Shown piece by piece: positions 33,154-34,289 of a stretch of 64,000 bases of DNA. The stretch lies in NCBI GenBank assembly GCA_003152075.1, contig PLZG01000024.1, forward strand, positions 1 through 64,000. The letters run 5' to 3'. Below the pieces are notes generated by a model. That model was not told the DNA's origin. It saw only the letters and a program-made list of their open reading frames with translations, and searched no databases. The number at the start of each line of letters is the position of its first letter. Position 1 is the stretch's first letter. This DNA is from a candidate division FCPU426 bacterium. GTDB taxonomy: Bacteria; Oederibacteriota; Muellerivitia; Muellerivitales; Muellerivitaceae. A program made the position numbers and the translations under genes.

Positions 33154-34230
33154 TTATTTGTCGTTCGCCTCACCGTCCATGGCTTTGCGGATGCGGGCCC
33201 GGTAACGCTTCAAAACCTCCCGAGGTCCCAATGAACCCGCCAGGCTCAAGGCCAAGACCTTATAACCATCGCCAAAAGCCTTTCCGTGAGCCTGACGGCT
33301 TTTCGTGGAAGCCAACTTGACGTAATTTTCACTGACCATGATGCTGGAATGGCCCATGAGATCCCTGATTTCGTACACGCTGGCTCCAGATTCGGCCAAT
33401 TTGGTGCCAAAGGTGTGCCTTAAAACGTGAACCGTGAGTTCATCTGGGCTTTCCAAGCCGGCCCACAGGGCGGCCTTCTTCACCCAAAGTTCCAGAAAGT
33501 GGGGATGGCTGGGTTTGTGGGGGCTCCTGGGGCTCGGAAATAGATAGGGTGATTCCGCTAAATCCTTATTCTTAAGCCCTTCGGCGTTGAAGCGCATCAG
33601 AAGATCACGAAGCATATCGGTCATAGGAACCGTCCGTTCCTTGTCGCCTTTTCCGATGACGGTTAGAAGCTTTTGGTCCAGGTCGATCTCCTTAAGCCTT
33701 AATTGGGCTATCTCGGAAACTCTTAAGCCGCAGTGGTAACCCAGCAAGACCACCAGGCTGGCTTTTAAGTCCTCCAAATCGGCCGTGCGCAGCCCCTTCA
33801 GGATAGCCTCCCGGGATTTGGGTGGCAAAGGCCGGGGATTGCGTTGGGGACTACGGATGGCCAGGTTGTGAAAGACTGCTGTGGGATCATTGGTGATATG
33901 TTGGATGGAGGCCAGGTAGCGGTAAAAGGAACGGGTCGAGGCTAAGATACGCTTCATGGACCGGGTGGAATAGGCTAGACGCGCCTTGCCGGCAGGCGTT
34001 TGTCCGGGCTTGGTCAACTGGCCAACAAAGCGGGCCAAGTCTTGGGGCTGAACCAAGCTTGGCTTTGAAATACCAGAAACGTCCAGGAACTGTTTAAAGA
34101 CCCTCAGGTCATGGTGGTAGTTAGAACGGGTATGGATTGACTTGCATAAGCCCAAAAAACCGGCATAGGGCTCGATGAGCTGCAGATCGTCTGAGCGATT
34201 GAAGGAATGGTTCAGGTTTGGGTCGGTCAT
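33154..34230 (-). CDS. Xer-type tyrosine recombinase
   Basis: This 358-residue site-specific recombinase has all catalytic residues: R170 (CGLRVSE), K194 (IGKGDKER), H268 and R271 (HVLRHTFG), H294 (MGHSS) and nucleophile Y303 (SENYVK). An N-terminal SAM-like core-binding domain (about 15-110) is followed by the catalytic domain, then an unusual ~55-residue basic tail (KSRQAHGKAFG...). XerC/XerD proteins are ~300 aa, so the tail is extra. A dif-like 28-base inverted repeat lies 14 bases upstream, overlapping its promoter. No excisionase, phage or transposon genes are near. I infer a chromosome-dimer recombinase working alone (like XerH/XerS); a solitary integrase is the alternative. Confidence 0.88.
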   Translation of the reverse strand: MTDPNLNHSFNRSDDLQLIEPYAGFLGLCKSIHTRSNYHHDLRVFKQFLDVSGISKPSLVQPQDLARFVGQLTKPGQTPAGKARLAYSTRSMKRILASTRSFYRYLASIQHITNDPTAVFHNLAIRSPQRNPRPLPPKSREAILKGLRTADLEDLKASLVVLLGYHCGLRVSEIAQLRLKEIDLDQKLLTVIGKGDKERTVPMTDMLRDLLMRFNAEGLKNKDLAESPYLFPSPRSPHKPSHPHFLELWVKKAALWAGLESPDELTVHVLRHTFGTKLAESGASVYEIRDLMGHSSIMVSENYVKLASTKSRQAHGKAFGDGYKVLALSLAGSLGPREVLKRYRARIRKAMDGEANDK

Positions 34231-34244
34231 AACCCCTCAATATA

Positions 34245-34272
34245 ATCTTCTATAATTGTAGTTATAGAAGTT
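34245..34272. other. dif-like recombination site (11-6-11)
   Basis: The left arm ATCTTCTATAA (34245-34255), six-base centre TTGTAG (34256-34261) and right arm TTATAGAAGTT (34262-34272) show 10 of 11 arm positions symmetric. The 11-6-11 geometry and the inner ATAA/TTAT ends are those of known dif sites. It sits 14 bases from the recombinase start codon. It could instead be only an operator for that gene. Confidence 0.6.
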
Positions 34273-34289
34273 ATGTTTGGTTTTGTCAA
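34261..34289 (-). promoter_or_regulatory. strong promoter of the recombinase gene, overlapping the dif-like site
   Basis: On the minus strand TTGACA (34289-34284), exactly 17 bases, then TATAAC (34266-34261). The -10 box lies in the dif-like repeat, so recombinase binding would block transcription; autoregulation is inferred. GAGGGG (34238-34233) is the ribosome site. Confidence 0.75.

Follow-up and report, generated by a model that had tools for sequence, protein, structure and literature searches.

The window analysed here, bases 1-64000 of contig C90 from a 4.1-Mb draft genome that is 99.97% complete, comes from a bacterium of an uncultured group: in the public genome collection, those of its close relatives that bear names are labelled candidate division FCPU426. 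On the minus strand lies xer (33154-34230), whose product, 358 amino acids long, is a single Xer-subgroup tyrosine recombinase. In line with an earlier note on this DNA, a 28-base inverted repeat was read at 34245-34272 (no strand assigned), in which the arms ATCTTCTATAA and TTATAGAAGTT, symmetric at 10 of 11 positions, enclose the 6-bp centre TTGTAG (34256-34261, likewise without a strand; CTACAA in the direction of xer). A gap of 14 bp separates the repeat from the ATG that opens the recombinase ORF (34230-33154), and its 11-6-11 layout, 6-bp centre and ATAA/TTAT inner ends are those of canonical dif. The promoter described in the note is also present on the minus strand: a -35 element TTGACA (34284-34289) stands 17 bp from a -10 element TATAAC (34261-34266), and the latter falls inside the repeat where one dif arm meets the centre, being composed of the TATAA of that arm and the first centre base. 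The interval 34245-34289, to which the note had drawn attention, comprises the site and the promoter as far as the -35 element. A Shine-Dalgarno-like GAGGGG on the same strand (34233-34239, ends approximate) is seen directly between the site and the ATG.

The recombinase possesses the full catalytic set that had been ascribed to it (R170, K194, H268, R271, H294, and Y303), and these residues are invariant in eight orthologues. It has the two-domain make-up of Xer proteins, without an arm-binding domain. Its basic C-terminal tail was confirmed at 55 residues past Y303 (33154-33321, minus strand, stop codon included), compared with about 19 in E. coli XerD; the tails of the orthologues vary in length and share a conserved KAFG...VLxxxR pattern that is absent from E. 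coli XerC and XerD. The XerC and XerD models give the protein nearly the same score, far below the cut-off in each case. Furthermore, a maximum-likelihood tree revealed that the orthologues cluster as one clade with 98/99 support, separate from the phylum's XerC group and from its XerD group; any finer placement was dropped on account of long branches. Foldseek placed the fold of a structure model with XerA and XerD, XerA (5hxy) being the best structural match. This model, with a mean pLDDT of 69, poor regions around the catalytic tyrosine and the tail, and a low-confidence tail helix at residues 336-353, supports the fold class only. The residues through which E. coli XerD contacts FtsK are not evident in this Xer family, and XerS likewise lacks them (PMC5357621). 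A search for viral relatives of the protein found none.

The repeat by itself proves little, because chance alone would supply about one such palindrome in a sequence this long: bare 11-6-11 palindromes with at least 10/11 symmetry occur twice in the 64 kb, against 0.95 expected, and the chance of one lying within 200 bp beside the gene is about 0.5%. Since palindrome statistics alone were not significant over 64 kb, conservation was used in their place. Each of the nine genomes of the order that were examined carries one clear orthologue of the recombinase, 59-75% identical (entries L013-L018, from another collection, are the same genomes and add none to this set). A TATAA-N6-TTATA site was present in all eight genomes with a readable upstream region, 0-31 bp upstream of the likely start codon. 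Across these eight, mean pairwise identity is 74% for the 28-mer, 91% for the inner 16 bp and 25-35% for the flanks. Both arms are conserved, and outer positions 2, 3, 5, and 6 vary in matched pairs, with two to four pair types each; the G004 site is symmetric at just 7 of 11 positions. The matched changes point to selection for symmetry. Within the centre, the second base is T and the fifth is A in 8/8 sites, and TT..AG occurs in seven of the eight (consensus TTnYAG in the direction of xer in the seven relatives). On sequence grounds, these conserved centre bases are a feature that an operator would not need. Relative to the gene, the centre in the window is reversed in comparison with all seven relatives, while the orientation of the gene relative to strand bias is unchanged; the polarity of a site with symmetric arms may be free to flip.

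A search of the 4.1-Mb genome for the 28-mer found the arms (18 fixed bases) exactly at just two other places, both on plasmid-like contigs, and a single chromosomal copy of the site. It is conservation, not palindromy, that lifts the site above chance: it stands upstream of all eight readable orthologues, and its arms are rare genome-wide. A scan of viral contigs for the arms gave seven matches, mostly on AT-rich contigs (30-34% GC) with flanks unlike this genome, which we regard as chance or unrelated palindromes.

The promoter is conserved together with the site. TATAAT occupies the place of the -10 element in the seven relatives, and a -35 search that was independent of the site itself found TTGACA-like hexamers 16-18 bp upstream of the -10 in the eight genomes, with a summed best match of 37/48 that arose in 0 of 20000 shuffles; the hexamer of G005 agrees poorly (3/6), and those of G002 and G004 agree moderately (4/6). 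Transcription starting about 7 bp past the -10 would place half of the site in the 5' leader. This overlap with a conserved promoter, together with the usual operator look of a palindrome beside a gene, would also suit a different explanation, in which the inverted repeat is a mere operator for the recombinase or another regulator and the chromosomal crossover site lies elsewhere. We consider that very unlikely, given the fixed 6-bp spacing, the TATAA/TTATA inner ends and the conserved asymmetric centre, and given three findings set out below: the terminus position of the site, the failure of a search of the order genomes to find another dif candidate, and the further copies that plasmid-like contigs carry at a distance from any xer gene.

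The suggestion that the site lies at the GC-skew switch was borne out in two relatives from different families, G008 and G005, at about 20 kb from the maximum, and found little footing on C90 itself. On the 274-kb contig of G008, the cumulative skew reaches its maximum at 187.0 kb and the site is at 205.7 kb, 18.6 kb off and no more than 35 of 6051 units below the maximum. In G005 (341-kb contig), the maximum is at 100.0 kb and the site at 121.5 kb, 21.5 kb off. On C90 the skew is weak, about zero to the left of the site and negative to the right. Strand-biased motifs switch around the site: TATGACG at 112.0-133.5 kb in G005, bracketing the site at 121.5 kb, and GGGGAA at 198.1-208.6 kb in G008, bracketing the site at 205.7 kb. 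Both motifs were picked on G005 and G008, so only C90 tests them independently; there, GGGGAA counts are 39:15 to the left of the site and 22:68 to the right, with a switch near 40 kb. The E. coli KOPS pattern GGGNAGGG on C90 is distributed 12:2 to the left and 5:13 to the right, and its switch, at 28.8-35.7 kb, surrounds the site at 34.3 kb. The contig of G002 showed no clear motif switch. An FtsK with a gamma domain is encoded in eight of the nine order genomes, the exception being 84% complete. By the skew of G008 and G005 and the motif switch of C90, the site is at the replication terminus.

The search for a second xer gene, made with the XerD model across the nine order genomes, found no XerC/XerD pair at the canonical level. 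Phylum relatives outside the order carry XerC and XerD at about 270-361 bits, whereas the order orthologues score about 145-158 bits (146 for the window protein, 105 for a truncated copy). Of 13 relatives tested in the rest of the phylum, 11 carry the canonical dif pattern, against 0 of 7 order genomes, so that neither two equivalog-level Xer proteins nor a canonical dif, the marks of an XerC/XerD system, were found here. G008, the most compact of the good genomes (97% complete), has the orthologue alone. The order therefore appears to have one recombinase replacing the usual XerC/XerD pair, which parts joined chromosome copies ahead of division, with the proviso that its genomes are draft assemblies in which a second recombinase may have been missed.

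The other XerD-model matches in the order are mobile-element recombinases and a tandem Xer-like pair (194-265 bits) in three of the nine genomes (L056 1053-7149 on G000:C97, with L166 and L167, in G000, G002, and G005). Were this pair the true XerC/XerD, the window gene would be an accessory; its best members indeed reach 258-265 bits on the XerD model, against 146 for the window protein. We find this scarcely credible: the pair is confined to 3/9 genomes and was not seen in several that are 94-98% complete (G001, G004, G006, and G008 strongly suggest that genomes of the order can lack it), canonical dif is absent, and the pair has a mobile look, always behind an ORF of 705-770 amino acids and among repeat-protein ORFs. 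The large ORF has a CHC2-type primase-like start in G005, as read by eye, and its G000 copy has no Pfam match; the pair is probably a mobile element with two recombinases.

Many tyrosine recombinases adjoin their own attachment site, and for this reason the gene could be read as encoding an integrative element's integrase, with the repeat as the attachment site. Such an origin is highly improbable for a gene that is single-copy in 9/9 order genomes, forms its own clade, lies at the terminus and has the two-domain Xer make-up without an arm-binding domain; its neighbours in the window are ordinary metabolic ORFs, and a second, flanking copy of the site was not found on the contig. The single terminus-linked Xer remains our preferred reading. 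A relative in G004 (C20, L165 4419-5354), 36% identical to Xer, was rejected as a second Xer and regarded as an integrase, since it adjoins a YqaJ-like nuclease and phage-like ORFs; it is closer to the host Xer than XerC or XerD are, and may be a prophage integrase that arose from it. Two further groups of recombinases were observed in G000. Three consecutive tyrosine recombinases of 444, 320, and 398 amino acids on C16 (L057 559-3280) have the look of a recombinase-in-trio element. Two near-alike integrases that start MSRPNVHGLPQFLRKDDKGYFLDYF, on the short contigs C67 (L058 3657-4772) and C78 (L059 4497-5600), are a repeated integrative element.

The two further copies of the arms lie at 34633-34660 of C47 (L009 1499-1526) and 1596-1623 of C73 (L010 1499-1526), each followed by TTCTTGACAA and preceded by related small ORFs. 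C47 (36 kb) encodes a TraG/VirB4-type ATPase, a coupling protein and a ParB-like protein, and C73 (4 kb) is related to it. The arms are identical to those of the chromosomal site, the centres are AAATTG and AACTGT, and the two sites share a 53-bp block that is 89% identical. Terminal overlaps that would prove C47 or C73 circular were looked for and none were found. The same arms with other centres fit plasmid dimer resolution by the host Xer, in which like plasmid sites would recombine and mismatched centres would block fusion with the chromosome.

Collectively, these findings suggest that candidate division FCPU426 very probably resolves its chromosome dimers with a module made up of one Xer and its own dif at the terminus. 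We infer a pathway of binding, FtsK activation, recombination and autorepression from the layout of the locus and its conservation. Two Xer monomers would bind the two near-identical arms. FtsK, loading on polar motifs oriented towards the terminus, would pair the two dif copies of a dimeric chromosome, and its gamma domain would activate Xer. Strand exchange over the 6-bp centre would then yield two monomers. Xer bound at dif would in addition block RNA polymerase, because the -10 box lies at the arm/centre junction, and would limit its own production. For this autoregulation, which the layout and the conserved promoter overlap support, we put the chances at slightly below even. In a fuller form, held just as tentatively, dif may double as the xer operator: Xer occupancy would set Xer supply, removal of Xer (for example by FtsK translocation or recombination) would release transcription, and selection for such coupling would maintain the position of the -10 inside dif in eight genomes. 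If this is true, production of the recombinase is tied to terminus processing. The promoter overlap makes it possible to test whether enzyme supply depends on occupancy of the site.

The module adds one more lineage in which a single recombinase with its own site replaced the XerC/XerD pair, and the change can be dated on a tree through relatives of the same phylum that retain canonical dif together with XerC/XerD. The symmetric, co-varying arms across the order and the plasmid sites with other centres provide a natural set on site recognition by one recombinase, which also bears on what determines strand order in a system that lacks two distinct proteins. We found no description of a dif/Xer system in FCPU426, or of a dif on an xer promoter, in the literature covered, from which subscription titles are mostly absent; a 'Cand' subgroup of Xer-related recombinases has been named from candidate phyla (PMC8138268), and single-recombinase systems are further treated elsewhere (PMC2731167).

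Compared with XerC/XerD-dif, the FCPU426 module shares the 11-6-11 layout, the ATAA/TTAT inner ends, the terminus position and FtsK-gamma; there, however, two proteins act on an asymmetric site, whereas here one protein outside both groups is paired with a symmetric site. Archaeal XerA/dif resembles it in having one recombinase and a 28-bp 11-6-11 site, and XerA is the best structural match, but the FCPU426 Xer reaches 124 bits against an NCBIfam XerA_Arch equivalog cut-off of 220; XerA is FtsK-independent (PMC5357621), and dif is not beside xerA in Thermococcales (PMC2958812). XerS/difSL of streptococci and lactococci, with one recombinase of about 356 amino acids and a site adjoining the gene at the terminus (PMC5357621), has the same overall arrangement. 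In contrast to the near-perfect symmetry of the 11-6-11 site here, difSL measures 31 bp, its central region takes up 11 bp and its arms are unequal and imperfect (PMC5357621), and the FCPU426 Xer scores 75.9 bits against an NCBIfam XerS cut-off of 267. XerH/difH of Helicobacter and Campylobacter likewise combines one recombinase (354-362 amino acids) with a site near the gene and is FtsK-dependent (PMC5357621, PMC3325230). The difH arms AGTTATGAAAA/AAAAGTTTGA are unlike the TATAA/TTATA arms of the FCPU426 site, and the match of the FCPU426 Xer to XerH (E 2.7e-6, 30 bits) is weaker than those to E. coli XerD (93 bits) and XerA. XerL/dif of the Legionellales, a single recombinase with long uninterrupted inverted-repeat arms, order-wide replacement and plasmid-borne sites in Coxiella (PMC9765430), is similar to the FCPU426 module in all of these respects. 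XerL and dif lie more than 400 kb apart in L. pneumophila (PMC9765430), and going by the published description the FCPU426 module is set apart by its host order and by its layout, in which dif overlaps the xer promoter. The FCPU426 module represents a new lineage within a known kind, the single-recombinase dif/Xer systems, on a par with XerS/difSL, XerH/difH, and XerL; what it brings together is a gene-linked dif, symmetric arms and a conserved promoter overlap.
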